The notes beneath the pieces were generated by a model. The model was not told the origin of the DNA and made no database searches. It saw only the letters and a program-made list of their open reading frames with translations. A stretch of DNA of 64,000 nucleotides from Paralichthys olivaceus (lineage: Eukaryota > Chordata > Actinopteri > Pleuronectiformes > Paralichthyidae). Position numbers and translations under genes: made by a program. Where the stretch lies: the NCBI RefSeq assembly GCF_024713975.1, contig NC_091093.1, positions 21,920,001 to 21,984,000 of the forward strand, read 5' to 3'. Positions 11,743-35,756 of the stretch are shown one piece after another (within the stretch, counting starts at the first letter, position 1; every line of letters begins with the position of its first letter).

Positions 11743-12554
11743 ATGTGGAGGAGACAGAAACGTCCTCTCGGGGAAGCCTTGGCTTGTCTCGTGTTTCTCG
11801 TGACGCTCGTCGATGCCCATCGATGTAAGTGCTTCGGACATTTCTCGGTGTTCACGGTAACAGGGCTCAGTGTCCCGGTTAGAAACCCGCAGCTTTTCCT
11901 CAGAACCACAGAGTGTTCAACTTTGGACAAACACCAGAGAAAGTGTCGTGACTTCTTCTCGCAGACTTCTGGACAACACGAGCCGCTCGTGACAACAGCC
12001 TCGGGTCATTTCTGGGAAGTAACGGTTTCGCAATGACCTTGTTATTTTGTGTTTGGTTTTTTTCTGTCAGGCCGTTTCATAGGAGTGTAATTAGGTTTGG
12101 TCCACTTCAGCCACATCAGCTCGAATCTGTCAGCAGGAAACACAGGGCTGACATTCCTGCTGCACCATGTGTTGGTTTAATGTATGAATCACACATGTGA
12201 GAGTAGAGTAATCTGTCAGAGTGTTAGTGAGGCTGGATAATATGTCTAACATGTTCATATCTTACTTTACACTACAATAGATAGAGAGAAACTGAGGCTG
12301 GACAATATGTCCACCATGTTCATATCAGTCAATATCGATAATATCACATAAGCAGTAACTAAGTGCATTTACTCAGGCACTGTACTCCAGTACACGTTTG
12401 AGGTACTTGGACTTTACATTGCAATAGATGAGTAGACGGAGGGATGGATTGATACATAGATAGAAAAGCAGATGGATGGATTGATGGATGGAAAATAAGA
12501 TAGATAAACGGACGGATGGACAGATAGATGGATAGATGGATGGATGGATGGATG

Positions 12555-12603
<49 letters not shown>

Positions 12604-15600
12604 ACGGACTGATAGACAGACTGATTGAGAGAGAGATAGATAGATAGATAGACAGACAGACTGATAGATAGATAGACGGATGGATAGATAGATAAATAGA
12701 TAGATAGATAGATATTATCACGATAATTATCACATTATTTCACTTAAGCAGTTGTGGAGAGTAACTAAGTGCATTTACTCACTGTACCTCAGTACACATT
12801 TGAGGTACTTGTGGTTTACATTAATATTGGTATTTATGCAGCCTTCTACCTCTGTGCCACTGCATCTCAAAAGGAATAATTGTACCACTGCTGCTTTTAT
12901 GTTTAAAGATTGATTTTTGCTCCTGAGTGAAGGTTGTGGTTTTAAACTCTTCTTTATGAACAGATAATGACCAACAGCTAATAAACAGCAAAACATTTAC
13001 CAGCCCTAATGCACAGAATGCTGACAATAGAAGGATTCTTCACACATTATGTTTAAGTGAGGATGTTTGTGTGTCTATTGAATTTCCCAGTCCTGAGCCA
13101 GACCTCAGCCTCCCAGTTCCTGAGGAGGCACCGGAGAGCCAACTCTCTGTTTGAGGAGCACAAGAAGGGCAACCTGGAGAGAGAGTGCATCGAGGAGCTG
13201 TGCAACAAGGAGGAGGCCAGGGAGATCTTTGAGAACCAGCCGGAGACGGTAACCAGAGCCTTGATCAAATGATAGAATACATGTTATTGAGCTTCAACAC
13301 ATATACATAACAAGAATAAGAAAATAACAGGAAAACACTATATATTCTCATCGTTCATTACATTCCTGAGTTTATAAGCAGTTCAAAAAGCAGTGACCAA
13401 ATTTATGGGATGCGAATGAGAAAGATAGAGAAGATCGGATATCTCAGAAATGAATTAAGCTGCGGGAGTGAAAGAAAGTACAAGTAAGAGATCAGACTAG
13501 AGTCTCAAGTAAATCGTCTTCTCGATGAATCTATAAATTGTTAGTAACTTGTCCAAAAATAACACAAAATGTAGATTGTACTTTCCCACAGCTCAAGCTG
13601 GCCTTCTCAAATTCTTTATTTTTTTGTCTGACACACATTTTGAATTGAATAACAATTTGGCTTTTTTCATTCGATTAATCATATCAGCTATAAACAGTGA
13701 AATTTAGGAACAGTAAACTTGAAATGCTGATGCAGCCAGAGGTTTTGCTGAAGCTTTAATTTGGACTGGTTCACTGCTTCAGAGAAGAGCTGCTCTCGTC
13801 TCCTTCTCTCTCATTTGTTTGTCTTTTTGTTAAAAGTGACTATTTTTCAAATCTCTATTTGTTTTTTGCAGGACTACTTCTATCCCAAATATGTTGGTAG
13901 GTTTTCTTGGTTTTCTGTATATTACAAGATGTTGCGATAAAATTAAGTTTTGCCTTTACTAGCCTGTCTCGATGAACACCACTCTCTGTTGCAGTGTGTC
14001 TTGGTTCACACCGTGTTGGCATCATCAACCAGAATTCGGACTCTGCCATCCCATCTGACCTCCGCACCTGTGTGAAAGGTGAGAAGCTTTCCCGAGGATT
14101 ATAAATTACTCTCTGTTTCAGAAGTGAAATATTTGCAATGACAACCTTGCGTGTGAGTGACTTTAACTGTTTTTTGCAGAGATCAGTAACCAGTGCACAC
14201 CATTTCCATGCTACATTGAGGGTTCAGAGGGCTGTGTGGATGGCCTGGCCACCTTCACATGTGTGTGTAAGCCCGGGTGGAAGGGGCTGCACTGTGAGGA
14301 TGGTGAGTCCTGATACAAAATTTGGGATTTTGCATGTTTTAGTTAAGCATAAACATCCTGCTGTAATATGTTGTACTTAAAATTAGACTAATATATTTCG
14401 GTGTTTGAAATGCAAACATTTTTCTTTTTGATGTACTGACAGACATCGACGAGTGTTCAGATCCTGAATTTCCAGCGGGATGTAATCAAAAATGTTACAA
14501 CGTCCCTGGCAGTTTCCAATGCATGTGTGAAGATGGCTACCTCAGCAATGACAAAATCAATTGTCTGGGTAAGACTTCATTGTGTTCATGTTAAAGTTTA
14601 ATTAGAGATATAGATTCTGATACAGATAGCGGCATCGGAAATGCCAAAACTGCTGTATTCTTCTCCCGGAAATCACTTCTTCTTCATTACTGTTGTTCTT
14701 TGTTGCCACTGGTGAGTCCTGTTTTTAAAGTGGAGAACAAGAAGTGATTTCCAGTAGTGTAGCATTAGCCAGAACTAGCTGAAATGTCAGTAATTTGGGA
14801 TTTTTTCAAGATAAAAGTCTCACAAGTAAAACAGCAACATAGTAACTTAAAGCTGTACTTTATAGAAGTGGTTATTGCTATAAATGCATTGGTATCGGAT
14901 ATTTACTTGGTAGCAGCCGATACGCAAAGTCCATGTATCAATATCGGGAAGATAAAGAAACTGGAAGAGCTCTAAATTCAACCACAGAAAGTTACTGTCT
15001 TATGTTTGTTCTTTGTGTGTATTAGTGGCTTGTGTCACATGTCTAAAGACATCCAGCTGTGTGACTGTCCATATGGAAGAAGAACATATAGTCCTACTAA
15101 GCAGCTGAGAAAACATATGTTCGTTTACACTGTATTATTCTTTTTAATACATTCTTTTTTTTATTTATTCATATGAACGTTGGAACCTTCATAACAAAAC
15201 TGCTCTCCCAGCTGTTGTCCCCAGGGCCAAGAGTATTTTGTTATTTTTTAAAGCTGACCAGATTTGACCTCTTTTGTGACTGAATGTGAAAAACTTTTAA
15301 TGACTGAAAAGATGGCCCTTTTTTACCAGTCTCATATCACTGAGTTTTTACAACCCACTCTATCTGTCCTCTGTTGGGTCAGTGTTTATCTTCGAGTCGG
15401 TTAAATGCTCATGGAGTTCAAAGTCTTGACAAACATAGACTGAGTCAATTTGGTAGATCTACTTTCTCCTATTTTTCTGATAGGATTTGAGAGATATACG
15501 AGACCAAGAGGGTTGTGCACATAAAAATCAAACTAATAGTCGTCAACACGGGATCTCTTAACCAGAATGAATGAATCAATACAGAGAATGTCCTGGGTTC

Positions 15601-18600
15601 TGATAAAGTGATATATCTAGGCTCACAACGCAGAGATGGCTGGCTGAGCGTGGCAGGTTATTGCAAAATCAGGTACTGTATGTGAAGATGCAAGACTTTT
15701 CCAAAACAATGGCAGAGTGGTGGGCCGAAGTGTTTCAACTGAAAGGTGGACAACAATCTGACAGATATATCAGTCCTTATAAAATGCCAGGTCTTGTTAT
15801 TGGAACTGGGTGTTTAGGTGTATTGGCGAGGTTTGCTGAACTGAAAAAACAGCCGAGACAGCAGGACACATATGCTACATCCACTACATTACGTTTTAGT
15901 TTTAAAAAGTCATTTTAAGACGATAAACATTTCAGTTTTATTGCAAATAATCTCTGTCCACTTATATGCACCTGAAAAGCCATATCACATGACTATAGAC
16001 GTACACAGAGCATGGGTAAACAGGAAGAAGGTTGTCTATTTGTAGTTGGTTACTCAGTTACAGAAAATGCTAAAAACAACAGGTCAAACTGAAACGGTGA
16101 AAAGTAAGAGCAGGGATTTGGCAGTGGTGATAATTGGAGAATAGGGACAATCACACAGCAGAAAACCAGAAGATGAAGTCAGAAGCAGCAGAAACCATAT
16201 TGCCTCATTGTTTCTTCATGTCATCCCAGAATGACTCCATGATCTGGGCTCTGTGAGGCCATGTATTGCAGAACTCCTTGTTTTTTCCTCACTGAAAGTA
16301 GTTCTTTATGACTCTGTCCATGACTCAGGGACCGAGCAGATATTTCCCTGATGATATTGCCTGATGCATAAGAATCATCTGAAGAAGCTAAAACATTTCC
16401 ACTGTGCTGTATCCCATTTCTTTCAGCAGCTGACTCCTTCCTTGAGCCCACCACCAAGGAAGCATTTTCAAAACAGTCTCTGCACTTCATCATGAGTAGT
16501 GCAGAGTCTGTTACTCATGTAACTTTTCCCACAATATGCAGGCGTCTAAACCCTGCATGAAAAGAAGAACGTCAAAATGCAGCTTGATGATTTTGTTTTC
16601 TAAATCACCACTCAGATCTATCATAATACAAATTCTCACAAGACAAATTGTCCGCTGTCATTATTTTCCAGATGTCAACGAATGCCTAATGTTTCCCAGT
16701 ATCTGTGGAAAACCGGCTAAATGTGTCAACACGCCCGGGATGTATGACTGCCAGTGTCCGCAGGGATTTAAATATGACTTTGCTACCAAAACCTGCAACG
16801 GTGAGACTTCTTGCTCTTGTTTTACGACCAAGAGTCTGAGACTACTTCCATCAACCAGCTTCAACAGACACTTGAGCCAAAGATTACTGCATGTTGATGT
16901 TTCTTTTTTTCACTGCTGCAGATGTAGACGAGTGTGAGTTGGGCCTGTGTGACGGCACATGTATAAACACAGTGGGCAGCTACGCGTGTTACTGTGATGG
17001 TCGTCTGGGCCTTCGTTTGGTTGAGAATAACAGATACTGTGAGAGAATCCCGGTTTGTGTGGAACTGTACGACCACAAACACTCAGAGATGCTTTATTTG
17101 GGGGATCAGTTCGCAGGCCTGCCGTTCATCTACCTGCATTTCCGTCTGGCGGAGAACACAAAGTAAGTCTAAATCACACACACATGCACAGTTACATTTA
17201 TAGTGTGTGAAATTATATTTCTGTCTGCTGGTGTTGTTAGGTTTGCAGCAGAGTTTGATTTCCGCACATTCGACCCAGAGGGAGTTGTTCTGTACGCTGA
17301 GTCCTCGAAGGACTCATGGTTCATGTTGGGACTGAGGGACGGTCGCATTGAAGTCCAGTTCAAGAACCAGCACACGTTCAAGGTCACCAGCGGAGGAAAA
17401 GCCATAAATGATGGACAGTGGCATGTGGTAAGAAAGAGCTATAGTTCACTAGTTCACTAAAGTGAATTGATAACAAGTGGAGTCGTGTTCTCGTTTTAAA
17501 CTGCGTTGAGCATCATGTGTAACATGCAGATCTCTGTGGATGAACTGGAAAGCAGCATCAGTGTGAAGATCAGTAAGGAAGCTGTGATGAGCATCAACAG
17601 CCCAGAGAGTCTCTTTACTTCAGTTAATGGCAAACTGGAGACCAAGGTCTACATCGCCGGTCTGCCCAACCGCACCGACAGCATCATCAAACCTGTGAGC
17701 TACAAACACTGTAGTAAATCACCCAGCAGACATGGTGGATGTTAAAATAATAATCTGGATAAAGTGTTGACTAAGATACTGGGCTGAAGTCCAGAAATCC
17801 AAACTGCTGTACTCTGTGTTTCTGTCCATCTGTCAGATCAACCCTCGACTCGACGGTTGCATCAGGGGTTGGAATATGATGAATCAAGGAGCATCTGGGG
17901 TGAGGGAGGTCATCCGGGACAAGAAGAGTAAACATTGCTATGTGTATGTGGAACGAGGCTCTTTCTTCACTGGGGCAGGACTGGCACACTTCAACATTGA
18001 CTACAGTGAGTAACTTAACATTATTAATCCATATGGAAAAACATTTATCTTTGCATGCGATTTATCAAAACTACTTGAGCAGAAGCAGCGTAACAAAGGA
18101 AGTTTTGTTCATGGTGCTTTGATTCAAAGAGAAATGTTAACAAACATGCATGTGATTTGGAGTGGGAGGAAAACTGATGAACAAAGAAGCAAAGCGATCC
18201 AAACAGAAAGATCCCAGTTTGTCCTTGTGAATTTTGAACAAAGACTTATTTAATGTTGAAGTACAGACTAGAGCCCGACCGATTTTGTCTGTCTGCTGAT
18301 AAAAACTGGCCAATAGGAGCCTTTCACAGACACATTGGTATTAGTGTGTATGTTTGCAGAGATGTGCCGACACAAAAACTTTGTTTGTATTTTGCAGAAT
18401 AAATAATACAGAAAAGATGTGCATTCATGTTTGCAGTTTACTTTAAATAGATTTTAATTTCCTTAAGAAATGTTATTTTCCTTCACTTTTCTTGGAATCA
18501 CAGACCCACACAGGTAAAATGCCCACACACAGGGTTCATATATTCCATATCATTTCACATTTTAACAGAACTCTTCAGATGGACTTTCCTCAGAATTGCA

Positions 18601-20059
18601 ACCATGTGATTTTGAGATAATCCAAACATATTTTAATCAGGTAAAGTTAGAATCATGGGATTTTATATAGTTTTTCAAAATTTCCATTCTGACAAAATAA
18701 ATGCAAATAAATTGTGTTTCTCCGTGTGTATGGGTGTGTTTAACAAGGTGATTCTGGCAGCTGGAAAATGGATATAAAGCTGAACATACGTCCATCCAGC
18801 AGCACAGGCGTCCTCTTTGCTCTCGTCCAAGATAACGCTGTGCCCTTATCAGTCGCTGTGGTTACTAAGGGTAAAGGAGAGGCTGTGAGTTCATAGAAAT
18901 ATGCTAATTTCTATCACTGCATGACTTCAAACACATGAAGTTAAACGTTGCAATGTTATTACCCTCCATTCTCCAGGACTTGCAGGTCTTCTTGGACGAT
19001 GTCTCCGTGGCAAAGTTGGACTCACTGATGTTGTGTTACCCTGAGCGGCTGACACTGCAGCTGAGTGTGACTCCCACAGGAATCCAAATCTCAGCCAATT
19101 TGTCAACGGTTACGTACATGGCATCTGATGCCCTGCAGGAGGCACTGGAGCGCCTCAATACCACCATGCAGAACCCCATCAGTACATACATTGGTGGGAT
19201 ACCAGGTTCGTCAAAGTAACAACTACAAGTTACAAACTAGGAAAGTGATGTTGTAAAGATAACTTTACAATATGCATCAGCTGTATAGTCACCATAAAAA
19301 GTCCAATGTGGCCAACGTGTGGGAACTGTCTCAGAGATTTCCAATAACGGTTAAAAAAACAAAATATTAAATGTTAAAATGTTTTGAGTACATGATGGCA
19401 CTGAATTAAAATTGAATGACATGGTCATCTGTACATATGTTTCCAAAAATCTGTTTAATAATCTGGACCAATGTGATGAAGCCACCAACAGACTCACATT
19501 GCCAAGATTTTGTCGTAAGTTGATTTATCCTCTGAATGATCAACACTCATAGATGTGTTGTTGGAATGTATGAATAAACAAATGAATTCAGTAATGTCCA
19601 ACCCTAACCCTGTCCTGGTGGGGGCTGGAACATTTGAGGTTACTTTTATACCTCTGCCAAGTAGGTTATAAGATTTCACATTCAAGGAAGGCCAAGTTAA
19701 ATTCCCAGTAAATGTAATTGTTAGTCCAGCTAAACCAGTGTGACATGTCTAAATACATCTCAAGACGAGGTTGTTCTCGATCCTGATGACAGGATTAAAA
19801 CCCAGTTGTGAAATGTACACATGCTGGGGGCTGTGTTTCCCTCCATCACTCATTGATGTCATTCTCACTGACTGTCACATTCTCTCTCTCCTAAGACGAA
19901 GTCCCGTTACCTGCCACCCCTGTGACAGCGTTTTACCACGGCTGCATGGACGTCTCTGTCAACGGCCGGCAGCTGGACTTTGACGAGGCTCTCAGCAAAC
20001 ACGACAGTATCAAGAGTCATTCCTGTCCTCCGTTCTCTCCCCCCGAAAGCCACCCGTGA
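11743..20059 (+). CDS. pros1: Vitamin K-dependent protein S
   Basis: Fourteen coding exons: 11743-11824, 13091-13248, 13872-13896, 13995-14078, 14180-14302, 14443-14568, 16672-16800, 16922-17162, 17241-17427, 17530-17694, 17837-18005, 18748-18884, 18977-19205, 19896-20059; 672 residues from the second ATG, which has A at -3 (an in-frame ATG at 11725 would add six; human is 676). Order: signal peptide ([13 protein letters not shown]), propeptide ending RRHRR, Gla domain with 11 Glu, hydrophobic stack YFYPKYV, disulfide loop, four EGFs and two LG/SHBG domains. EGF2-4 carry the Asx-hydroxylation pattern (e.g. [12 protein letters not shown]). Protein S rather than GAS6: [20 protein letters not shown] and [13 protein letters not shown] follow PROS1, and the GAS6 string [10 protein letters not shown] is absent. 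Family role: secreted cofactor of activated protein C and TFPI, and a TAM-receptor ligand. Odd: no intron between EGF4 and LG1; altered loop arginines. gas6 follows in tandem. Confidence 0.96.
12340..12425 (+). repeat. Fragment of a teleost interspersed repeat (5' flank of satellite)
   Basis: Contains GTAACTAAGTGCATTTACTC followed by sequence ending GAGGTACTTGGACTTTACAT. Nearly the same sequence recurs at 12752-12822 on the other side of the GATA satellite. I recognise this as a very common fish repeat (consensus feature: acttgagta/taagtacatttactc); the family assignment is from memory. Confidence 0.65.
12424..12716. repeat. GATA/GGAT/GACA tetranucleotide satellite in pros1 intron 1
   Basis: About 290 bp of imperfect GATA, GGAT, GACG and GACA units inside the first coding intron of pros1. 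It has the same unit repertoire as the satellite at 11303-11527. Confidence 0.95.
12750..12905 (+). repeat. Degenerate teleost interspersed repeat (3' flank of satellite)
   Basis: Begins GTAACTAAGTGCATTTACTC like 12340-12425 and continues further into the same family, with a decayed segment (TTCTACCTCTGTGCCACT ... ATCTCAAAAGG). The two copies bracket the satellite, as if it expanded inside one repeat. Confidence 0.6.
14620..14965. repeat. Degenerate interspersed repeat with inverted arms, pros1 intron 6
   Basis: A 14-bp perfect inverted pair, GGAAATCACTTCTT (14668-14681) and AAGAAGTGATTTCC (14739-14752), is separated by 57 bp. Downstream are GATAC/ATCGG-rich strings (about 14890-14950) of a kind I recall from degraded fish DNA-transposon remnants. 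Classification is inference. Confidence 0.45.
14966..16671. other. Rest of pros1 intron 6, no recognised gene
   Basis: The largest pros1 intron after intron 1 (whole intron 14569-16671). Open stretches at 15661-15918 (+) and 16221-16493 (-) have no splice partners or motif I recognise. The minus stretch may be old repeat or pseudogene material. Confidence 0.4.
18262..18370 (+). repeat. Degenerate interspersed repeat, pros1 intron 11
   Basis: Starts near AGAGCCCGACCGAT, a terminus I recall from an abundant fish non-autonomous DNA repeat, and continues with AGGAGCCTTTCACAGACACA. Heavily decayed. Family name not assigned. Confidence 0.5.
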
Positions 20060-20971
20060 TCCACCGCACCTGCACACGAAGTGACCTTAATTAACAGCAG
20101 TGTCACTTTTGGCAGTGTCCCACAGTGGACACTTCTTGGGACATTTTGGAATGGCAAATTTATATGGGATTGGGGGGGTTGAGAAAGAAGTGTTAAAAAG
20201 AAGAAATAGAGGTAGATGGTTTTAGTCATTTTTGTCGACTTTCTCACATTGGTTTATTTGAAGCTTTGTCTTATTCTTTTCCTCCATACAGTATTATTGC
20301 TCCTGTTCTGAGAGCATTTCATTCAGTTATTTTTGTGTTTTTGTTTTTCTTAGTGAGGCACAGTGAAAGCTGGCTTGCCAGTGACCTACTCAGAAACTGG
20401 ATGACGTAGTCGTAGCACTTTGTTGCAATGAATTCAGTTCTTTCCAAGCGGCTTTGAAATAGAGCTGAGCTCTGTAGTGCACTTACTGCGTGTTGAGCAA
20501 GAGATGGGTGATGTTTGTGTAGAGGAATAAACAAATGGTCACATTGGACCAGGCTGTGAGACCACCTGCACCCTTTTTCTCCCTGCGGTAGAATCATAGC
20601 ACGATGTCTAAATTCTCTTTAACTTTGGTCTCATGGAGGAAGACGTCTGGAGACAACCAGCTGAAACTGTGGTGGTTGGTTGTGGCGGTGAAAACCACAA
20701 AAGAGAAAGAGGAGCCGCCAGGCTTTCGATCCAAGTCTGCTCCAATTTCTTGATTGAATCATCTTTCCTAAGAAACATCTGTTATGATTTAATTGTTTCC
20801 AGAACCCACCATTGATGTCACCAGATGTAGACACCTCTCACTGTGGCTGTAAAAACTTGTCCTCATCTTCAGCTTTCTCCTGTGTTCACTATTTGACTTG
20901 TATATAAACAGGCCATCTTTAATATATAACTTAAATGTAGGTGTTCATTGTTGTTTGTTTGTTAAAATAAA
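20060..20971 (+). other. Probable pros1 3' UTR with AATAAA signal
   Basis: No coding exon follows the TGA at 20057-20059. A canonical AATAAA lies at 20966-20971, with T-rich sequence following, and is the first convincing polyadenylation signal downstream. This implies a 3' UTR of about 0.9 kb. Confidence 0.55.
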
Positions 20972-22184
20972 ACTGAGCTAAGCAATCTTATTTTGAAGCT
21001 GTTGAATTTTAATACTGTATTATTCTGCACTCTCGCATAACCAACGCTAGTCAAGAAAGTGTCTTTTTTAATCTTCAATGTCAAGGTCAGAAAATAATAG
21101 CAAATGAAACTAGTGGTGAAAGTCTTTGTGTACAGGTGCGTTGTACAGAGCTTTTGAAAGGGTCCACAGATGAGGAGAGAGTTTCAGAGGGCTGCCACAC
21201 GGAATGTTGATAAAGCTTCTCAGGCTACTGTGGAAGATGGTGAGCAGACCTGTACAGAATGGCATTGTATTTTAAATGACTTAATATTCATATAATTATA
21301 ATTGACATTTTATACCTGGTTTCAAATATAGTGATAATAATGCTTAATAGTCCAACATATTGACCAATGTCCTGAGTCAACACTCCAGTCTTATATTCAG
21401 TAAAGTAGTAGGTTGATGAAGGCATTAAAAGTGAGTCATCAATTATACTTTCATTCAATTTCAGCATATAATACACATAAATGCTTCACTGTTGGCATCT
21501 TCAAACCTATAGATTTGTTGGAGGATTTTTTGGAAAATGATTTTTAATACTCAAAATGATCCATGTTATATATAGTATAACTTTACATATTTTGTCTTTT
21601 GGGTCAGTAATTAGTTGTGTTTTGTGAAGCTTTGTGTTCTTTACTATTACACATTTACAGTAGAGAATAAAGCATTATTTTCAAACTATTTTAATATTGC
21701 AACCATAGACTGTACATAAAGATGGATGACATGATGGCTCTGCAAAAGTGAAGCCAAAGTTTATCATCGCCACCTGGTGGATGGCTGCAGTATAGGTTAC
21801 GAATCCCACCTCAAAGCAACTCAATCTAAATATTGAAAAGAAATTGCTTAGGAAATTAATATGAGAATTTTTGTAAAAATTACATCAAAATATAATATAA
21901 TATCTAGTAGTGGTGAATGTTGGAGGGCATTTGCACAGCAGGAAGCTGGTCGTGCACATATCTTTTTATCTATACCCAAAGTTGACAACGTTTTGGAGAG
22001 CAGTTCAAGAGAAAATCACAAAATTATTCCTGCTAAAGAAGCCAATACAACCATCCAACTTTATATTTGGTACCTTTCCCAATTAGAAATGGAATAGCAA
22101 GGAGATATAGCCACATTAAAATAAATTGCACAGCATTGGATGGATATCAAATCACCATCATTTCTGAATCTATGGTGTGTTGAT
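20972..22184. other. pros1-gas6 spacer, otherwise no gene seen
   Basis: AT-rich, no splice-bounded coding sequence. Apart from the repeat at 21706-21805 I see nothing recognisable. Confidence 0.45.
21706..21805 (+). repeat. Interspersed repeat (CCATAGACTGTA family), pros1-gas6 spacer
   Basis: Begins CCATAGACTGTACATAAAGA and contains AAAAGTGAAGCCAAA and GGCTGCAGTATAGGTTA. A second copy with the same start and the AAAAGTGAAGCCAAAA block lies at 57190-57300. A 3' portion (GGCTGCAGTACAGGTCA) lies at 30897. The three loci show this is an interspersed family. Confidence 0.65.
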
Positions 22185-22320
22185 GTCTCTTGGCCACCGT
22201 ACAAAAACACAAAATGTTGCTTCCTGGCAAATGTTGTCACTTGGGAATCTGGAATCATTGAGCTGTGGTATTTTTGCTGAAATAATTAACTCTCCTTCAG
22301 TTGTTATGTATGGTGGTGGT
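22185..22320 (+). repeat. Direct repeat copy 1, pros1-gas6 spacer
   Basis: Begins CTCTTGGCCACCGTACAAAA and runs through TTGCTTCCTGGCAAATG to TTATGTATGGTGG. The same order of blocks recurs at 22761-22912 at roughly 80% identity by eye. Confidence 0.75.
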
Positions 22321-22634
22321 GGTGGGGTGGCAACAACACATGTATTTTAGTAGAAAAATTTGCACTTGGACACTCATTAGTGTGTTGTGAACTACCTAAA
22401 AGGATGGAGACCATATTTAAGAAGAATCGATTTGACGTATTTTAACTTTAGCTTGCCCCATGTCCCATCCACTAACATGGAGGAGGCAAGTTTTTTTTTT
22501 TTTTTTTTTTTACTAATTTAATTACAAGTATTCAGAGTCAAGTCAATCATACTGCCGCACGTACATAGGTGGTGTCAGTGGTGATGTGAGATTTTGCAGC
22601 GCATGTGTCGTCAAATTGATGAAGTTGTTTTCTC

Positions 22635-22752
22635 AATTTGCATGTGTTTTATTTTTTAATTTGCATGTGTTTTATTTTTTAATTTGCATGTGTGTTTTTT
22701 TTAATTTGCATGTGTGTTTTTTTTAATTTGCATGTGTTCTCTTAATCTGCAT
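22635..22752 (+). repeat. Minisatellite, about 24-bp unit, five copies
   Basis: Five tandem units, each starting AATTTGCATGTGT followed by a T-rich tail. They sit directly between the two direct repeats. Confidence 0.9.
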
Positions 22753-22760
22753 TGCGAAGC

Positions 22761-22912
22761 TCTCTCGGCCACCGTACAAAACCACAAATGTTTGCTTCCT
22801 GGCAAATGCTGACACTTGAGAATCTGGAATAATTCTTGGGTATTTTTGCTTAAATAATGAACTCTCCCACAGTTGTCTGCTGGTTAATAACAAGGTGTTA
22901 TGTATGGTGGGG
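22761..22912 (+). repeat. Direct repeat copy 2, pros1-gas6 spacer
   Basis: Begins CTCTCGGCCACCGTACAAAA. Matches 22185-22320 apart from an extra segment around 22875-22897. It ends where GC-rich sequence leading into gas6 begins. Confidence 0.75.
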
Positions 22913-22924: not shown

Positions 22925-23436
22925 CTTTAGTTGCCCCGGGACCCCTGTCCAGAGGTGACTCCGGCAGTGAGCGGTAGCAGCGGGGCTGCATCACTCACAA
23001 ACTCCTGCCCACACACTGATACTCCCCCTCCTGAGGCAGCTGCAGCCGAGGCGTGCTGCACACCGAGTCCGGCCAGAGAGCACCGAGCACCGGAGCAGAG
23101 ACACACAGAGAGGACGGTCAGGAAACTACAGTGAAGCCCGCAATGGGGGACGAGCTGAACCGAAAGAGAGAGTAAAAAAAAGAAAGAAACGAGGTCGGTG
23201 GTAGTTAATGCGGGAGAAGCACCGCACAGTTTAGAGCTCAACCTTCCGGCGGCGGTGAATTAAAACCGCATCTGAGAAAAACGTCACCGTGATCCACCTG
23301 AATACCTGCAGTGTTTCCAGCGGTGACATTGAGAGACGTGTTGAGGGAGACACACGCAGAGGAGAAGCGGAGGAGGAGGCAGGGAACGGGACAGGAGAAA
23401 GTTTCCGGAGCTTGGCGCAGACACAGCGGCTCAACA
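22925..23436 (+). promoter_or_regulatory. GC- and CpG-rich gas6 promoter / 5' UTR region
   Basis: Composition changes abruptly at about 22930 from AT-rich repeats to GC-rich sequence with many CpGs (e.g. CCTTCCGGCGGCGGTG) up to the gas6 ATG. There is no TATA box. This looks like a CpG-type promoter plus 5' UTR; the start site cannot be placed from sequence alone. Confidence 0.55.
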
Positions 23437-26400
23437 ATGCGGCTGACCCCGACAAAGTCCCTCTCATCGGCCGCCCTGCTAATCCTGCTGCTGGCTGTCC
23501 GCTGCTCCGACGGCAGTAAGTAAACACTCACATGCTAGGTGGCTAGCTAACCCCGCTCAGTCCCCTTTGACATTTGTGTTGCTGCTGATTTATCAAAGTC
23601 ATTAGCTGCAGATATTTCGCAACCTCCCTCCAATGTTTGCTCTTGTTTTGTTTTTGGGAGCCGCACATATCTCCGTGCTCCCCCGAGCTGTGTGACCCCT
23701 CTCATGCCCCCTTCTGCATTCATGAACACCGTGTATTTAGTTTTCTTCTTCTTCTATTTTTAGTTTCCTTGTCCCCTGAGGAGGCGAACCAGTTCCTGAG
23801 CAGACACCGGAGAGCCAACCAAGTGTTCGAGGAGACGAAGCAGGGCCACTTGGAGAGGGAGTGTGTGGAGGAGAGGTGCAGCAAAGAGGAGGCCAGGGAG
23901 GTGTTTGAGAACGACCCAGAGACTGTGAGTACTTCGCTTCTTTAGACAGCCAGAGGCGGATCTAGGATTTGCAGATGTACACAGAGGGGGCAATTGTGTG
24001 ACCGATATTCATCCTGATTCAGTAAAGCCGAATTCGACACGCACTGAACTCTGGATAATCTCCTGATGTTCTCAAAAAGAGCTGTCTGTGAATTTCTGGA
24101 GCTGCTTTCAGACTTGCACCGGACTCCACAGTACCTCAGTATTTTCACCAGAGGAAGGGCACGATTTTTCAGTCAAGGTTACATGTAGGTCCCACTGACC
24201 CCAAACAATCTCTTCTCCTTCAGCACCAAAAAACGTAATCATTAGATCTTCAAAACATCATTGTCCCTGTTACAATGTATACTGTCACTTCTGCCATCTT
24301 GTTTTTTGTCATTTACCATAAGGCTGCAAGGTTGGTTGGTTTGCATCAGGTTCATATCGACTTCAAATTGATGAATGCAATGTGACATTAGACTAATGAT
24401 TCACTGTCTGGGCTGGTGATGATCATGCTCCAATAAGCCCAGATTGCTGATAGCCATCAGTACACATAACATTTCCGTGTCAAGGACTTGGCATGTTGTT
24501 GTCTTCTCCTCTTAGTTTGTTTCTGTGACAGACATTGAGTCAGTGTGACTAAGCCAGAGTTTGTGAAAGTACAGTATAAGTGAAGGCACTGCTATCCCTG
24601 TGCACAGTCACTTCTGTCTTCCATTTGCTAAAAAAGTGGCTGCTGCTGCTGGAGGTTTAGGTTCCTGCCAAAAATAGGAAACACCTGGATATCTCTTCTC
24701 CATCTCAACATCTGTACCATCTGTGCAGGTCCACGAGCAAATATCCTTACACACGTGCACGTGAATGAGGCAAACAAACCCCTCTGATTGGTCTCTTTAG
24801 CTGATTGGCAGCTTCATTCAACTCACACTAATGCACATTGCCTCACTAATCTGTATACATGTTTCCACCCTGTTTTTCTCATTTACGTTTACCAACAAAC
24901 CAAATCCATCGCGTCTTGTGTGCTAAGGAGTATTTACTGCCGATTAGTTTCTATTCTGGATTCCAGAATGCGCAAATCAGCCTATATCCATGTGAATACA
25001 TAATCCTATTGAATACTTCATGTGCTAAATATGCAAATCAGACCCAGGGATATAAATAACCCAGTGTGTCTGAAAACGTGCAACAGCTTATGGGCTGAGG
25101 TGTAAACATTCATTGGCTTCAGACTTTTAATTCTTCAAGCAGACATCTGAGTGTGGTATGTTGCATGTGTCAGCGTGCGTGTTTTGTTAATCAGTGAGAT
25201 AATATATGGTGTCCGAGCATCTTTAAAATGGCAGCTGTCAAGAAATATGAGAGCAAGTAAATTCTGGCAGTGCTAAATGTTTTTATTTTTGCATGTTGTC
25301 AGCTTAATTGCATGATTTGTATGTCAGGGATTCAGAACAAGTTTAAACTGTGCACCAAGGGAGTGTTTGTTAGCATAGTGCCGGTGATGCCGCTGCCGCT
25401 CTTTAACGGACGCCTTTACTCACTTTAGACACTTTGGCAGAGAGCAAGTGAATGAGGCAATCTGTGACTCAGATTATTCGTAAGGTTATCCAAGTGCAGA
25501 GACATGGCAGCAGTCAGAGGGAGGATTAAACGTGGAGCAGAGCTGGGTTCAGGGGAAAAGGTGAATGTAGGTGACGCTGGACGCACATCACCAGCGTAGC
25601 AGCGTTTGAATGCCTGTAGCTTTTCTACCATGTCGTGACAGAAAGCTGCAGTCTCATTCATAGCTGCATTATTCATTCTGAAAAACCCAATCTCTGACTC
25701 TGCATTTTCTTCTACTGCAGCTCTTCTACTGCAGATAGAGAGAGAGGGGTGTTCTCAGATACTGGCAACAAAAGTGATTACTCCAAGTTTATGGACTCTC
25801 ATCTGTTAACTGACTTTTCCAGAGGGACAGATAATCAATAATAAGTCTCACAACTGAGTATTGTGCTTAGCTTAAGTTTACTAATCGCCCAAAACTTCTG
25901 TCTGCTACTGTCACGATTCAGCAATCCCATTGGGGCTTATAATCAGGCTTCATGTGTCTGGCTTTAGCACAACTTTCATTCGATTGCTGATTCTTTTTTT
26001 TCTTTTTTTTTTTTTACACCTCAGCTTGCTGCATCTGGTTCCTACTGCAGCATAAGTTTCCTTAAGTCTCCTTCCCCTGGTCCATTTTCCAAAATTTTGA
26101 AAACTGCAGCCAGGAGGAGAGAGGGATGCTACAACTATCAGGAATGCAGAGAATTCTCAGGAAGCCCCTGGCAAAAGGCCGCACCCATTAGAGAAAGAAC
26201 ACAGATTACAGAGTAATCACTCTGTAAACTCTGTCTCGATATAACACACACATACCTACAGCACATGGACCAATGCCACACTTGAAAATAATGATTATTT
26301 ATAAATTGCTCTTCCCTGCTGTGAGTATGAGCACAGAGATCGAGTATAAAACGAAACCAAATCCTAAGATTATGTCAAGCATTAGTGGAGACATCCCCAC

Positions 26401-29400
26401 TAGTTGTAAGCATCTGTTTAGATTATCGTGTTCTGTTTAGATTCTTGTTTATACACCTTAGTAACTTTATCCCCCTCTTCTCCCTGATTTAGGACTACTT
26501 TTATCCAAAGTATTTAGGTAAGTTATCATTTTGACACAAACCCTTCATCTCTACTCACAACAGTCACATTTTCTGATTATACGTTTGTAATCATCATTTC
26601 ATTTTTCACTTTTGTCTCTCTCTAGTCTGCATGGACAAGTTTGGAGACTCAGAAAAGAAGAAACAGGATCTGGTCACGTGTGTCCACAGTAGGTTTTAAA
26701 ACCCACTCATCTGTCTGTCAACTTCACGTTAACGCTGATTATAGAAGTTTATAGATGCTGCTTTTATTTCTCTCACCCTTCCCCTCTCATTTTTCTCTGT
26801 GCAAGTATCAGAGGCAGCTACCTAGATGTAGTGCAGGGTTGGGCTACACTGCAGTATCATTCCTCTGCAGTCACCCACTGGCACGCACTCTCTCCAAGTG
26901 TAAAAAAAGGAAATATATAAGGAAGGATGATGAAAAGGTGCTGAATTTTTAACATCATCTCCAGGTCACCCTTTGCGGTGTCTCTCTGACGTTGAAGTGA
27001 GCGTACCATATGTGCGTGATCGCAGCAGGTAGCTTTGGGTAACTTTGCAGCACTTTGCCACAGTGATGTTGCACATTGGTGAATGAGCAACACACCCCTC
27101 ACAACGTCACACACGGCCTCCCTCACTCTCTGAGCTACTGCACCAGCTTCTCCGTGAGCTGGCTCAGCGTGGCGAGAGTGACGTGAATCAAACGTCGGTC
27201 GTGAGTGGAGCACAGGATTTCTGCTGCATCAGGCTACAAGAGACCGGCACCGACCCGGCTTTGCTGCGATTGGCCGAGGAAGCTGGGAGAGGGGTGGGGT
27301 AGGGGGTGTTGGTTCCATGACTCAGCTGCAGCATCGTGACACTTAAAGATACGGTAGTTCTTTTTTTTTTTTTTTGCTTATCATTCAGCACACCATCTCT
27401 CTCTCTCACTGCAAATCTCTGTCTCTCTGTCAACTTAAACAGTCAAGAGGTGTGTGGTAAACCAGTATCTGTTTAGTGATGGGTGGTAAACTGGTGTCAA
27501 AAAGCAGATCATGTCATTCCATAAAGACTATTTATCTGATATTATAGATCATCCTACAATCATCACAAAAGTTTATTTAATTGTAGGCACAACAGAAATA
27601 GTTTATTCTTCCAAGACTTCCTGCATCTATTCCCTTTATCCACTATCCCTATATCTTATTTGAACCCTCATCTCATTTGCAAATTGCTGTGTGGGAAAAT
27701 ATAATCATTAAATAATGATTTTCCATTTTCTGAATTAACGATGCAACAGAATGAAAATTTAAAATCACAATTATAGCGAATGACATTTGAAATCAACAAA
27801 TAAATCAAGTGTGCTATTCCAGGTTTATTTAAAGGTTCAGTGTATAAGATTTAGGTGAAAGGAATCTTTTGGCAGAAATTTAATACAAAATCATCCTAGT
27901 GATGTTTTCACTAGTGTGTTGCATCTAAATTGTACGTAAATTATTGTAAGCGGGTCCTCTCTATGTAGGCCGGCATGTTTTTTTTTACAGTAGCCCAGAC
28001 TGGACATGTTTGGAAGGGGAGGGTGAGGTGAGAGGTATTCAGCTGCAACATGCAACTTGATGTCACTAAATTCCACACACTGAACCTTTAATTTAATCTT
28101 TGCCTGATACAAGAAGATTTCTGCATCATGAAAATGTAATCTGATTATACAGAGGCTTCTCATTGCTGTAGTTGTCGAGAGAACTTACATTTACTGATTC
28201 TCAATATTGCTGTTTATGACATTGATGAATTGCATGACTCATCCTTCTGCTGAAAGCCATTCATTTATTTTTTTACTTAAAAAATATTCATTTAATTAAT
28301 CATCAGAATCATACATAACTCAGTATCCATTCATTTGTTGTTTGTAAAAATAGGTTGTAAAATCTGGCAGAAATGCAGCTTTATACATCTGGCTCTTGTA
28401 CTTAATGCTAATTTTCAGAACATCTAGTGTCGTTAATATATAATTAATATATCATTAATTACTATACAACAATACATTGTATTATCCACCAATGGAGAAT
28501 GAATTGCTTGCTGATGTGAACTCTCGCTCTCTTGCTCCCCTCATTTTCTCCAGGCACTGTCCCTTGTCTGTAACTTTCTCTTTCTGAGCTGCAGCTAACA
28601 TGCCCAGACTTGTCGAGAACTCCTCTGCTAGGAAAAAGAAACTGTAGGGGGAGAGAAAAGATTTACACAAGCTCACTTACACAAGTTTGGAGAGAATTCA
28701 AGTGAAAATATTTCACAGAAAAACAGGACAAACTTTAATGACGAGATAGTTGAACACAGACACAAACATCCGTTTCTTCTTGAGAGCTGGAGGTCAGGTA
28801 TGCTGGGAAGGACTGAATTAGGGCATCCCTGGCAGGAGAGCTTAGCCAGCATTAGGCTATTTATATTGAAGTCCTGATATGCAGAACATAAGAGATGCCC
28901 TTCATCTATCTGGTATCACTTTACAATCACATGTACTGAGGGCATCCGGTTTGTACAAACCACAAAACAATGATGACACTTAATTCCTTGCATGTGTCCG
29001 TCTTTGTTTTTCTTCTCTCTTGAAGATATTCCAGACCAGTGCTCTCCCTCTCCCTGTAACGCCAGAGGCACGGTGCGCTGCGAGGACAAAAAGGGCGACT
29101 TCCTGTGTCACTGTTTTACAGGTTGGACGGGAGCCAGATGTGAGAAAGGTACCGTCATCCTCTACTTTGGGAAGAGAGAGAATATATAGCAGGAAAATTG
29201 CGTGCAAGAGCAGAGCAGAGGTTGAATTTTTGCTCCGTCATTCAGTGTCACGTCCAGCGTCACAGGGTAGATGTCAACACTGTGACCTTGGTTCTGACAG
29301 CCAACCCCTGCCCTGTCCCCTGATAGAAAGAGCTCTATCCCTCACTGTTATTACTTCTATATTTGATATTTCTCATCATTTTACATCAAATGTTTAGTTT

Positions 29401-30369
29401 TTATTTTATTATAATTGCTACAGCTGTTATTGTTGACGTGCATATTTAGCAACCAAGTGCTACTGCTTCTGCTGCCTTCGCTGTTATTAATGATGTGTGA
29501 ATTGTGTGTCACATCAATATGAACTCTATGAACGGCAACTGTGGTCACAGAGTTCAAGTCGGGATCTGAGCAAGCCTCTTAAGAGGTCAAAGCTAGTTAC
29601 TCTGTATATAAATCTGCATCTCCTCTTAAAAAAAGTGAAATTCAGAGAAAAGATTTCACTTTCGAAGGAAACATTTTCAAATAAATAGAACTGGAAAACA
29701 TACCTAACTTAAAAAGAACACACTCTGTGAGGGAGAAACATGTTTGTCTGATTTATGGCACAGCCATCATTCCACACATTTCCACTCTGACTCATCCTGC
29801 CACCTTACCGTGAGAGGAAACCAAAGCAGATTCAGTCAAACTTGGTCCGAGCCTTTTCCACTTGACAACCGCACTCCTCCTAAAACACTCAGCCACAGTG
29901 TGTCAGTTATTTGTAAGCCGTTTAAACAAAGCACCAATTCATAGGATATTTATGTCAGCTTTTCAACCTATATCAAACTAACAATTCAGAATGTCACATT
30001 TTTACTTTTACAACTGGTTACGTTAAGTACATTGTGATCATGAATTTGCCTCTCTTAAAATCTTAACACACGCCTAACAACCTAATGCTGTGCACAGCCC
30101 ATGATGAGGTTTTTCCCTGTGCTCACGTTGACTGCATTACCATCCTATTCGTAGATGTCGACGAGTGCTGCAAGAGAAACGGAGGGTGTGATCACCAGTG
30201 CAACAACACTATGGGCAGTTACCGCTGCTCCTGTCACCAAGGATACATGTTGGTAGGACGCCAGATGTGTAATGGTAAGCCACAAACCACAGATACACAT
30301 AACCTAACAACTGTATTCATGTAGGTACTGCAGAGTTTGCCTTGTGAATTTACGACTTCAGTCTCTGAG

Positions 30370-30406
<37 letters not shown>

Positions 30407-30688
30407 CATAACTTTGCTTGTTTTTTCTGATACTCTTTGACACAAATGATTCGATCATATTTTTCCAGCAGAGGGGTTGATGTTAAGGTCCTCTTGGTTT
30501 TATTGAATCTCCATCAGTCTGTGATTTGTCCAGCTGTGACCACAGTTTGTGTCTTTCAGATGTCAATGAGTGTGAGGACGCAGGTGTGTGTGGAACCGCG
30601 CAATGCGAGAATAAGGATGGCAGCTATGACTGCTTGTGTGATGCCGGCTATGTCTACGACAATGAAACCAAGACATGTGTTGGTAAGT

Positions 30689-30732
<44 letters not shown>

Positions 30733-33700
30733 TAAAAGAAAGTCACACGGTTTGATAAAAAGTGAGTGAGGAGCAGCTTCAGGCTCAGCAGGAATCCGTG
30801 CAGCTGTGTTGTGAGGTCAGGAAAGGAATGCAAAGACATTTGCAGACACTGTATAAGTAGGTAACAGGTCAATGTCTACTTTTGTTCAATTTGTTCAATG
30901 GCTGCAGTACAGGTCAGAAATCTTGCCTCCTCCTTGTTAATTGATTGGACATTGAGCAAACTCAAAAGTCAAAATATGTCAAATACTTTTTTACTCAAAG
31001 ATGGTTTCTGTTTTTTTTAGCTAGTTGTTTTCATTCTGGTGTTTATCCAGGGATAATTTTTCAGATTCAGGTTTTGTTTAAATTTGATATTTGATGCCAT
31101 ATGAATAGGGTAAAACATCACGATCGACAGCTGACTCACGATTGGTCAAGCACAGGTTCTCACTGCCACGGCTCTATCCCCCAATCAGTAATGCCAAGAC
31201 TCTGGCGAATGTGTAAGATGGCAGCATTCAAAAAGGATATTTTGGCTTAAGTTCTGGATGGAGGGAGGAAGTGGAGATGTTGTTCCATCTTTTTATACAG
31301 TTGATGTTACAATCACTCTCTTCCTATAATCCTGGAGCTGACGGTAAAGAGGAGCTCAAACTCTACAGAATCTGATCTTGTATATATCAAACAGGTTAAA
31401 TCCTTTTTCTCCACAGAAAAAATAGTAGGAAACATTAAAGTCGGCTAAGTCGATACTTAAATACACAAGGATGATAGGTTTTCCCACGAACAAGCAGTGT
31501 ATTTTTATTCAAAAAGATAACAGTAAGATAAAATGAATATGTGTTGCCAACAACATGGAAAAGCCATTAATCACTTGTGTGCCCTGTTGTGCTCTGCTGT
31601 GGAAACCAGACTTTTCATAACCTCCATGTCTGTCCTCAGAGAACTAACAGTAATTATAGACAAGGTCCTCATTGCCATGTAAGGTTATATACGGAGCAGA
31701 GAGATACAACCCAGTCATCGTCAAAGATCACTCGACTCAAGTGTTGTTTGCATACCCTGATAAGTCTGATTTTTCTTTCAAACATCCTGTGATGTTTTTC
31801 TGATCCTTGGAGGTTCATGTTTCGACTGATTCCACCAATGATGTGACTTTGTTAACTTAAAGAACGTTCTGCTGCTCTGAACTCTTTATATCTCAGTAGT
31901 CACTTTCATCTCTCCTTCTCTTTCATTTTTCTCCATCCTGCTCTTTTGCTCGTCAGATGTGGATGAGTGCTTGACAGGTGTGTGTGCAGAGGAGTGTCTG
32001 AACACTCCCGGGAGTTTCCTATGCTTCTGTGATGGTCGGCAGGGCATGAAGCTGGGCCAGGACCTCAGGAGCTGTAAGGTGAAATACATTAACTGTTGTA
32101 TATTGAGCAGCCATTTCAGATTTCAGCTTCCACTTTAGTTGGAAAACATCTGTAAAAATAGAAATAACTTTCATGATCTTTTACACAATTAGGACAGGGA
32201 AGGTCTCAAAATGCACAGAATCCTGCATCCTCAAAAGTCGTTACTCTAATAAAAAGCTTGAAAGCTTTCTAAGAGAACTGAGATTTTTTTTCTTGCCTGC
32301 CATTGGTAGCACTGAAGGTAAAAATGTTTCCCAGATTCTTGGAAATGTCACAGTCTTGTAAAAGAAGGATTGTTGTGACAGTGAGCTTTCATATTTTGAC
32401 TGGTAGAGTCATGATACACCTTTTTGCTTCCTTTCCTATATTAAAAAGTCTTTAATTGAACTTGGTGAACCGGCAGAAACCTGTATTATGAGTGAAGCTG
32501 CAGTTTTGGTAAACTTGTATGCTTCTCATTGTTTGGCAGTGTGCGTTATCTCCAATTTCTTGTTTATCTGTTTTTTTCCTTCAGCCTATAACTCCCTGCT
32601 TGTCGCCGTCTCTGAAGAGGAACTCTCGTTCTCTTTACCTGGGCCGCATGTTCAGTGGCGTACCGGTGGTGAGGCTGCGTTTCCGTAGGAGGATTCAAAC
32701 TGGGTGAGGAAATAGTTTTGTGTTGATGCTCATCCACTTCAACTGTTCACCTCTTCCACATTTACACACTTGTTACACTGAGTAGAAAGATGGACAAGAT
32801 TAAAAGACAGTTGATTGACCTTTTCCAGCTCCCTGGTTCTGGTTATTTAACTTTCTAACTAATAATGAACAAAATTGTTATGTATTACATATTTGTTTGA
32901 AAATGACTCACATTACTCATTGAACTTGAAACAAGTCTCCCAACTTTCTGTTGTTTGTTGATTTTAAAATGCCTGAGCACTAAGCTCCCTCTTGACTTTA
33001 TTTTACCTCCTTTCAAAATGCAGTTCAAACTAAATGCTTCAGGCAAATCCTTTTATAAGTTCTTGATTCAATTTTTGTTTTCAATGAGAGTGTTTATCGT
33101 GAAGTGAAAATGCAGGTTGAACGGTTCATCACAAAGTCAGAATCTGAGAGTATATCGGTCTTAAAAGAAAACTTGTTTTTTACCATACATAGTCACCGTG
33201 AGAAATTGAATCAGCTAATTCTAAAAATAATTTCTAATATTAGCAGGAATGAAAATACCACCGACATTATCAGAGTGGGTAGCAGATAAAACTATTTAGG
33301 TCACTAAAAGGAACAATTTTTTTCGTGTCTTTTTCTCCCTTATTTTCTTCTGTATTCCCACCAAACCTTTGTCATTCAAACACATGCTCATACCAACATT
33401 CCCCTCAATCTCCACCTCTTCTCCCAGCTTCTCAGCAGAATTCGACTTCCGTACATACGATCCTGAGGGGGTGATTTTCTTTGCTGGTGGTCACCTGAAC
33501 AGTTCCTGGATCGTGCTGGCAATGCACCATGGGAAGCTGGAGCTGCAGCTTAAGTATGGCACAGTCAGCAGGGTGACCAGCTCCGGACCAATCGTCAATG
33601 ACGGTCAATGGAGAAAGGTTGGAGGCTTCAGTCATTATGGAAAATAAAACACTGTCTGCAGGAGCTTCAGTAGCTGATCGAAAGTTCCTCAAATGTTTTT

Positions 33701-35756
33701 CTCGTCAGATCTCCGTGGAGGAGCAGGGCCGGAGTCTGGTGATTAAGATCGACAGGGAAGCCGTCATGAAAATCGCAGTGAATGGTGATCTGTTTACACT
33801 AAAGAAAGGCATGCATGAACTCAACCTCACTGTGGGCGGAGTCCCATTCAGAGAGGATGGCCTCGTCAATCAGGTGTTTATTTGCATGTGCTCTTGTGTT
33901 TTCTTGAATTTGTACCATATGGTCTTTACATATTCCTCAAATGTTGTGTTCATTTCGCAGGTGAACCCTCGTCTGGACGGCTGTATGAAGGAGTGGCGGT
34001 GGCTGACGGGCGAAGACTCCTCCATACAAGAGACCATTCGGTCCAACGACAACATGCAGTGTTTCAGCACAGAGGATCCTGGAGCTTATTACCCCGGCAC
34101 AGGCTTCGCTCTCTTCAACATCAGCTATGGTACAGCATGTGTGTTAGTGTGTTTGAAGCTTGCATAACTCAGCTTAATTTACTTCTTCCTGCAGCAGTTA
34201 GTCAATGCTTCATTTGTTTGGATGATTATAAGTTGATTTACATTATTGGCTACACTTTTGTCAACAGTGTTGTTTGTCGACGGTGTTCATGACTTTCTGT
34301 TCTCACGTCAGAATCACAGAATCTGAGCCTCCAGTTGACCCTACGTCCAACTTTCGCTATTGGCGTGCTGTTTGCACTTGTTTACCAGGACAGAGTCCCT
34401 CTCTCCATCGCTCTGGCCAACTATCATCCTGGCATGGATGAATGGAGAGATGTGAGTAGATGTGTGTGAAATCAGTTTGTATAATAACTGTATTTTTGTT
34501 TTGAAAACTTACCTTTTTTGTGTGTCTTCAGTTTGTTCTGGTGTCTTCAGGTGATGCCATCATTGCCAGCTCCCCCGCTCCACTGTGTGACGGTGAGAGT
34601 CATGAAATCCGGCTGACGATCACGGGCAACCAGACGCTGCTGCTGGTCGATGGCCAGGCTGGACGAGGTGAAGAGGCTGAAGTTCCTGCTGACGTCCTGT
34701 CTCTATCCAGCACCTTCATAGGAGGCATCCCTGGTGAGGACACACATGTTTATTTGCACACTTTGCAGGATGTTATGCTAGGATTAGTAGCAGTTGCATT
34801 CCATTAAGACAAACAGGACATGACCTGTTAAAGCTCAGTTAGACAATACGGATGTGGAAGCCATATCTCTCCTTATATCTGATGTCACAACAGTGTCCTG
34901 TCCCAGAAATGAACTTGCCTGTTGGCAGGTCAATCAATGTGCAGTTCAGGTTATCAGTCAGTTAATAGATGCTACAGCTCATCAAGACCCAAGACAAGTT
35001 CCTGTTCTATTATTTGCCCCAACAGCAGGATTTCTCTCACATGTTCTGATCCACATAAACATCTGCTGTCAAATATAACTGTGACAATAGGATGATATGT
35101 TTCAGAGAGGACTCTTAATTTAGCACTTCTGTCACACACTGGTCTCACTTCTGTGAGGAACCTCTGAGAGCATGATGCTGAGTAGTTTGGATGAACTTAC
35201 AAATGACAAGTACTTAAAATTCTAATTATTGAAATGGTAGAGGCATCTCAAGCTGTTATTTTATAGTCAGTGGAAATTAAGGTTTTCGTTAAAGGCACGT
35301 TGAAAAACAAAAATGAAAGTCAGACCTTTTCTCTTATATGTTATTGTTGGTTATTCTTGTATTTACTGCTGTTAAGTAAAATGTGTGCCCTAGAACATAG
35401 ACCGAAACGAAGAAGCTATTTTACACATAGAAGTCTAGTTTTATCCAGTTTTCTTGAGCTCATGATTAAATAATCTTAAATTTCAGTCACAGCTGTCCAA
35501 TATTCCTCAAACTGGATGTATGATAATGATTTTGTGTTAGTGTCAGCTGAAAGAAATACTGTCACCACACTCGTTCACATGTTGTTATTTCACCCCCCCA
35601 GATGACATTCCGTTGGTTTCCACACTGGTATCAGCACCCTACAGCGGCTGTATGGAGGTCAGTGTAAACGGACAGTCTCTGGACTTGGACCAGGCCATCC
35701 ATAAACACAACGACATCCGCTCACACTCCTGCCCCCTGCTGGACTCCCACCAGTGA
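23437..35756 (+). CDS. gas6: Growth arrest-specific 6, TAM receptor ligand
   Basis: Fifteen coding exons: 23437-23515, 23764-23924, 26493-26517, 26626-26688, 29026-29148, 30155-30274, 30560-30682, 31957-32078, 32585-32703, 33428-33617, 33709-33873, 33961-34129, 34312-34451, 34532-34733, 35602-35756; 651 residues, phases close. Order: signal peptide ([13 protein letters not shown]), propeptide ending RHRR, Gla domain with 11 Glu, YFYPKYL stack, short loop between two Cys (exon 26626), four EGFs (EGF2-4 with the Asx-hydroxylation pattern), two LG domains. Diagnostic GAS6 strings: [41 protein letters not shown]. Family role: secreted vitamin K-dependent ligand of Tyro3, Axl and Mer that bridges phosphatidylserine to phagocytes; LG1 contacts the receptor. 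Its loop lacks the protein S-type thrombin region. LG2 is about 20 residues shorter than human by my alignment (human 678 in total). Same strand as pros1, 3.4 kb downstream. Confidence 0.96.
23925..26492. other. gas6 intron 2, no recognised element
   Basis: 2.6 kb between the Gla exon and the mini-exon at 26493. Non-coding by eye. There is a T-rich run at 25997-26016. No RNA gene or open transposon sequence recognised. Confidence 0.4.
27829..28091. mobile_element. Complete MITE with terminal inverted repeats and TTAA duplication
   Basis: Left end TTAAAGGTTCAGTGTATAAG and right end (complement) TTAAAGGTTCAGTGTGTGG form about 26-bp inverted repeats with four mismatches. TTAA occupies both outer edges (27829-27832, 28088-28091), as expected of a piggyBac-type target duplication. 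The interior (GCGGGTCCTCTC, ACAGTAGCCCAGACTGGAC, TTTGGAAGGGGAGGGTGAGG) has no coding capacity and matches an abundant fish MITE I remember. It lies in gas6 intron 4. Confidence 0.88.
30372..30406. repeat. (ATT)n microsatellite, gas6 intron 6
   Basis: About eleven perfect ATT units. Confidence 0.95.
30690..30732. repeat. (AC)n microsatellite, gas6 intron 7
   Basis: About 21 AC units, starting 8 bp after the exon 7 donor. Confidence 0.95.
30893..31270 (+). repeat. Interspersed repeat fragment (3' part of the CCATAGACTGTA family), gas6 intron 7
   Basis: Begins GGCTGCAGTACAGGTCAG, matching the later block of the copy at 21706-21805. It continues with TTTTACTCAAAGATGGTTTC and later AATGCCAAGACTCTGG, strings I recall downstream in the same fish repeat. 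The extent is approximate. Confidence 0.5.

Follow-up and report, generated by a model that had tools for sequence, protein, structure and literature searches.

Protein S restrains clotting, and Gas6 signals through TAM receptors; in human, PROS1 lies on chromosome 3 and GAS6 on chromosome 13 (13q34). In Paralichthys olivaceus the two genes adjoin head-to-tail, in the order pros1 then gas6, on the + strand of the 64-kb window analyzed here (the whole stretch of DNA, C1:21920001-21984000), and together span about 24 kb. We consider it probable that the two genes form an old tandem pair and that their adjacency is ancestral. The proteins themselves look like ordinary protein S and Gas6, and the informative part is the gene arrangement only.

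Gene models and protein domains

The gene models were predicted from the DNA alone, as stop-free frames joined by phase-consistent splicing with GT...AG introns (Table 1). Both spliced models have consistent phases and no internal stops, and their ends coincide exactly with the outer coordinates of an earlier note on this DNA. That note had named the two genes, placed them on the same strand about 3.4 kb apart, and assigned a Gla-loop-EGFx4-LGx2 plan to both. The open models bear out the names, the strand and the spacing, with 3,377 bp between the pros1 stop (20059) and the gas6 start codon (23437); the domain plan stands on Pfam, on the exons read by eye and on alignment to GAS6. The Gla profile matches the window at 13150-13248 and 23826-23924 (C1:21933150-21933248 and C1:21943826-21943924). 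No further exons of either gene were found in the window: 52 of 52 tblastn matches (E up to 0.1) overlap modelled exons.

Table 1. Features of the window (positions counted from its first letter)
Feature	Position	Strand	Basis
rasa3, 3' part, upstream of pros1, ends approximate	726..7419	+	ORFs; RasGAP fragment, BTK motif
pros1 (protein S) CDS, 14 exons, 672 aa	11743..20059	+	predicted splice model, Pfam, orthology
pros1 exons	11743-11824, 13091-13248, 13872-13896, 13995-14078, 14180-14302, 14443-14568, 16672-16800, 16922-17162, 17241-17427, 17530-17694, 17837-18005, 18748-18884, 18977-19205, 19896-20059	+	splice model
pros1 propeptide and Gla exon, RRHRR/ANS junction	13091..13248	+	Gla profile, splice model, alignment
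pros1 loop exon (84 nt), equivalent of thrombin-sensitive region	13995..14078	+	splice model, alignment
pros1 EGF4 and LG1 start in one exon	16922..17162	+	splice model, intron comparison
presumed pros1 3' UTR	20060..20985	+	AATAAA at 20966
gas6 CpG-enriched 5' region, presumed own promoter	22930..23436	+	base composition, inference
gas6 CDS, 15 exons, 651 aa	23437..35756	+	predicted splice model, Pfam, 424 bits to human GAS6
gas6 exons	23437-23515, 23764-23924, 26493-26517, 26626-26688, 29026-29148, 30155-30274, 30560-30682, 31957-32078, 32585-32703, 33428-33617, 33709-33873, 33961-34129, 34312-34451, 34532-34733, 35602-35756	+	splice model
tmem255b (FAM70 family), tail to tail with gas6, ends approximate	39183..43054	-	ORFs; Pfam FAM70 E=1e-29
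grk1 (rhodopsin kinase), ends approximate	53615..58612	-	307 bits to GRK1 vs 188 to GRK5
atp4b, ends approximate	60018..63059	+	240 bits to H,K-ATPase beta vs 113 to ATP1B3

Pfam recognizes Gla, EGF-type and laminin-G (LG) families in both proteins. The gas6 product follows the plan of GAS6 and the pros1 product that of PROS1, each with a Gla domain, a loop, four EGF and two LG domains (EGF domains counted by eye, in gas6 from the exons). Only the first LG of pros1 forms a separate Pfam stretch; the second is visible in the alignment to human GAS6, which covers residues 265 to 668 of 672. Matches to the LG domains of human GAS6 (1h30) reach 424 bits for gas6 (E = 9e-126) and 306 bits for pros1 (E = 4e-90), which excludes chance for both genes.

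At the level of residues, all 11 Gla-domain glutamate positions of human protein S are kept in both fish proteins (alignment, by eye). The pros1 loop measures 25 residues from Cys to Cys inclusive and ends in DLR-x-C; the loop of human PROS1 measures 26, with the same ending. The human loop has three arginines, the thrombin sites. The fish loop has two, and by eye only the DLR Arg aligns with a human Arg, while the HRV Arg does not. The strand RMFSG.PV.RLRF of the first LG, which contacts Axl in human GAS6, is kept in gas6 and not in pros1. Both proteins should be secreted and gamma-carboxylated and should act as ordinary protein S and Gas6.

The two genes look to be transcribed independently. 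AATAAA occurs four times in 20001-23000 (at 20526, 20966, 21666 and 22120), and the instance at 20966 is the likeliest candidate for the pros1 polyadenylation signal. CpG o/e is 0.79 at the 5' end of pros1 (11751-12250) and 0.77, with a G+C of 0.58, at that of gas6 (23001-23500). The CpG enrichment at both 5' ends, together with a candidate polyadenylation signal in the stretch from pros1 to gas6, points to separate transcription units, each with its own presumed promoter. The interval between the genes also contains two stretches that appear similar by eye, 22190-22300 and 22760-22900, and look like a repeated element.

The compactness of the pair would fit an ancient tandem held together in fishes by a shared regulatory landscape, with separation selected against. 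The separate CpG-enriched 5' ends speak against this, as does the fact that the human genes are apart and both work, and we regard it as very unlikely. A wider proposal, in which a non-ohnologue tandem formed in an early vertebrate was kept for >400 million years in fishes by a shared regulatory landscape and the mammalian separation freed protein S as a liver-dominated plasma anticoagulant, seems to us quite improbable.

Orthology and age of the duplication

We aligned fish pros1, fish gas6, human PROS1 and human GAS6 over the 387 columns common to all four, which cover the EGF4-LG region. Among the solved structures matched, protein S appears only as an EGF3-4 fragment (1z6c), and the GAS6 entries (1h30 and others) comprise its LG domains. 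The human PROS1 used in the alignments is a provisional copy of the sequence, which scores 189.7 bits against 1z6c over 87 residues. Fish pros1 is identical to this provisional PROS1 at 198/387 positions and to human GAS6 at 155/387; for gas6 the counts are 194/387 to human GAS6 and 154/387 to the provisional PROS1. Forty-five columns divide the sequences two against two: 37 join pros1 with PROS1 and gas6 with GAS6, 3 group the sequences by species and 5 pair them crosswise. The orthologous topology is the best under LG+G4, by 74.9 log units (AU p < 1e-11 for both alternatives). It is also the best for the second LG alone (last 155 columns), where the other topologies are not rejected (AU 0.13).

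On these comparisons each fish gene is the one-to-one orthologue of its human namesake, so the duplication is older than the fish-tetrapod split and not a recent fish tandem. Fish pros1 shares with human PROS1 the domain order, the Gla glutamates and a similar loop length, and differs in its location beside gas6, the human gene being at 3q11. Fish gas6 shares with human GAS6 (13q34) the domain order, a short loop and the LG1 strand, as well as the neighbours RASA3 and TMEM255B; in the fish, a pros1 gene stands between gas6 and rasa3. Table 2 of PMC9643190 gives protein S as present in jawless vertebrates, which would make the duplication older still if that orthology holds.

A recent fish-specific tandem duplication of gas6, with one copy merely protein S-like, would account for the head-to-tail adjacency and for the similarity of the Gla exons, which are 80% identical over 138 bp between the two genes. 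Against it stand the quartet, in which 3 columns out of 45 group by species, the AU test, and the four-fold degenerate sites of pros1 and gas6, which are saturated (37/110 identical). The quartet sites and the AU test rule it out for EGF4-LG as a whole, and we find this scenario hardly credible.

The last exon of gas6 (35602-35756) is nearer to human PROS1 (29/50 identical) than to human GAS6 (24/46), perhaps as an ancestral state or through an old conversion. A recent gene conversion of this exon was considered and rejected: 5/12 of its four-fold sites are identical between the paralogues, against the overall 37/110. An old conversion of the second LG could still have taken place.

The exon plan of the two genes is largely common. 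Thirteen introns match in order and phase; 10 of the 13 occupy the same alignment column, and pros1 introns 1, 11 and 12 are off by one to ten columns. One extra intron, between EGF4 and LG1, is present in gas6 and missing from pros1. The joined pros1 exon (241 nt) is the exact sum of the two gas6 exons (122 + 119), which makes a clean intron loss in pros1 likely. The pair thus combines adjacency, a same-strand arrangement and a common exon plan, as expected of tandem duplicates. A comparison of 7501-23000 with 23001-39000, with low-complexity sequence masked, gave three short matches (the Gla exons, the last exons and one inverted match, 22390-22494 vs 30918-31026) and no residual duplicated flanking DNA around the genes. 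At such an age the loss of duplicated flanks is expected, and the tandem mechanism therefore has no direct trace.

Gene neighbourhood and related loci in the genome

In wider flanks, 40 kb to each side, open frames were read by eye down to a length of 72 or 85 aa. They represent a TPP2-type gene upstream and genes of the TMCO3, DCUN1D2, ADPRHL1, GRTP1 and LAMP1 types downstream. Ten pieces were searched with Pfam (two from TPP2, five from the other flank genes and three from the arl13b locus on C24); nine hit a family that was expected, and one of the two TPP2 pieces had no match. Pfam backs all six flank types, and the names of the flank genes below the level of Pfam family are a reading by eye. 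Within the window, rasa3 matches the BTK motif with E 2e-13, above the curated cut-off, and RasGAP with E 3e-4, below it.

The resulting order in the fish is rasa3-[pros1]-gas6-tmem255b-grk1-atp4b-tmco3-dcun1d2-adprhl1-grtp1-lamp1. The order at human 13q34 is RASA3-GAS6-TMEM255B-GRK1-ATP4B-TFDP1-TMCO3-DCUN1D2-ADPRHL1-GRTP1-LAMP1. From rasa3 downstream the fish order equals this human order except for TFDP1, which was not seen among the frames read, and pros1 is the only extra gene recognized. With RASA3, TMEM255B, GRK1 and ATP4B as its neighbours, as in human, gas6 stands in the expected surroundings, and the 13q34-like gene order marks this as the GAS6 locus, within which protein S lies. The downstream flank also has an unbroken + strand frame of several hundred codons (L015, from about 1620) between the genes of the ADPRHL1 and GRTP1 types. 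Upstream of rasa3, the fish has the TPP2-type gene instead of CDC16 and UPF3A, which lie beyond RASA3 in human, where TPP2 is also on chromosome 13. The block is therefore rearranged upstream of rasa3, and a rearrangement near pros1 is thinkable.

An assembly artefact that joined two loci is scarcely conceivable. The window contains no N bases and lies in the interior of a 31.8-Mb contig of a 588-Mb genome in 25 contigs; the pair sits in this chromosome-scale contig between genes that neighbour GAS6 in human. A faulty join would need to have placed one clean 10-kb gene exactly between these neighbours.

Across the genome there are 16 matches to the Gla profile, and 14 of them fall outside the window. 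Eleven of the 14 loci were compared with both proteins, eight as 10-kb and three as ~3-kb loci; three on C24 were left out. Similarity is limited to the propeptide and Gla region or just beyond in 10 of the 11, and one (L024, C5:13.9 Mb) has no similarity to pros1 or gas6. None of the 11 loci, at ~3 or 10 kb, contains an LG match; in gas6, 5 kb separate the Gla exon from the EGF1 exon, so a spread-out gene could be missed.

Five Gla exons lie within about 18 kb on one strand at C24:14421675-14439936 (14.42-14.44 Mb). They probably represent the factor VII/X/protein Z cluster, on another chromosome than gas6; in human, this cluster and GAS6 are all at 13q34. The human cluster is likewise a tandem of Gla genes, from the same human region, but it encodes serine proteases and not LG-domain ligands, and its probable fish equivalent is on C24, not C1.

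The best match to ARL13B, which neighbours PROS1 at 3q11 in human, is also found on C24 (9.92 Mb, 74% identity). The fish arl13b (C24:9.91-9.93 Mb) stands beside a FARP-type gene (in Pfam, PH domain only) and a GGACT gene, both types being on human 13q32. With genes of human 3q11 and 13q thus mixed on one fish chromosome, a single ancestral chromosome for the two regions is plausible, and it is easy to picture PROS1 and GAS6 being separated in the lineage leading to humans. In chicken, PROS1 and GAS6 are both on chromosome 1.

A grk1-like exon of 78% identity occurs on C10 (C10:7803535-7804233) and probably belongs to the second grk1 copy that the teleost genome duplication produced. The genome-wide Gla profile search gave no match on C10. 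This agrees with a remark in PMC9454499, which implies that pros1 and gas6 each lost one copy rapidly once the teleost genome had duplicated.

Origin of the pair

The principal alternative derives PROS1 and GAS6 as ohnologues, at first on different chromosomes, from the whole-genome duplications of early vertebrates, with a later transposition in fishes that brought pros1 next to gas6. The human 13q34 block has 2R partners (GRK7, RASA2 and TFDP2) on 3q23, and PROS1 is likewise on 3q, which fits this origin. Members of a 2R-ohnologue pair are expected on different paralogous blocks; in this genome, both genes are in the same one, on C1 between rasa3 and tmem255b. A grk1-like exon of 58% identity on C15 is probably grk7, and the sole Gla match of C15 is 5 Mb away from it, with no LG match within about 5 kb. 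The ohnologue origin also needs a later move of pros1 into the exact slot next to its closest paralogue, on the same strand, between rasa3 and gas6. By our estimate, chance would only rarely bring about a same-strand landing of this kind, with odds in the region of 1 in 20,000. Using a tree and a molecular clock, PMC4221892 places the split at 649 Ma and attributes it to the whole-genome duplications; in its main text, no words starting with synten, tandem or chromosom were found. All in all, we judge the ohnologue origin rather unlikely.

For the old tandem pair, we infer an ancestral adjacency, a local duplication, and separate promoters from which the two genes express secreted, gamma-carboxylated ligands. 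The ancestral locus between rasa3 and tmem255b would have held one Gla-EGF-LG gene, and this gene would have been duplicated on the spot ahead of the fish-tetrapod split, probably at an early stage of vertebrate evolution. Its copies would then have diverged into protein S, an anticoagulant cofactor and TAM ligand, and Gas6, a TAM ligand. The pair would have stayed adjacent in this fish, and PROS1 would have moved to what is now 3q11 on the way to humans. The earlier note had proposed that a linked pair bears on a tandem origin. That holds in so far as the genes are orthologous to the human pair and lie in the GAS6 neighbourhood, but one fish is compatible both with an ancestral tandem and with a later relocation.

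Within the literature searched, so far as its texts were available, we found no printed statement of pros1-gas6 linkage in teleosts; the likeliest source, Guiguen et al. 2021, falls outside that literature, and absence from print is not implied. Public genome browsers may well display the pair in many teleosts. The linkage is a direct argument against the statement in PMC4221892 that PROS1 and GAS6 split in the vertebrate genome duplications, and it thereby touches on the descent of an anticoagulant cofactor and a TAM ligand from a single gene. In fish that have the linkage, both TAM ligands may be hit by large deletions at the locus.
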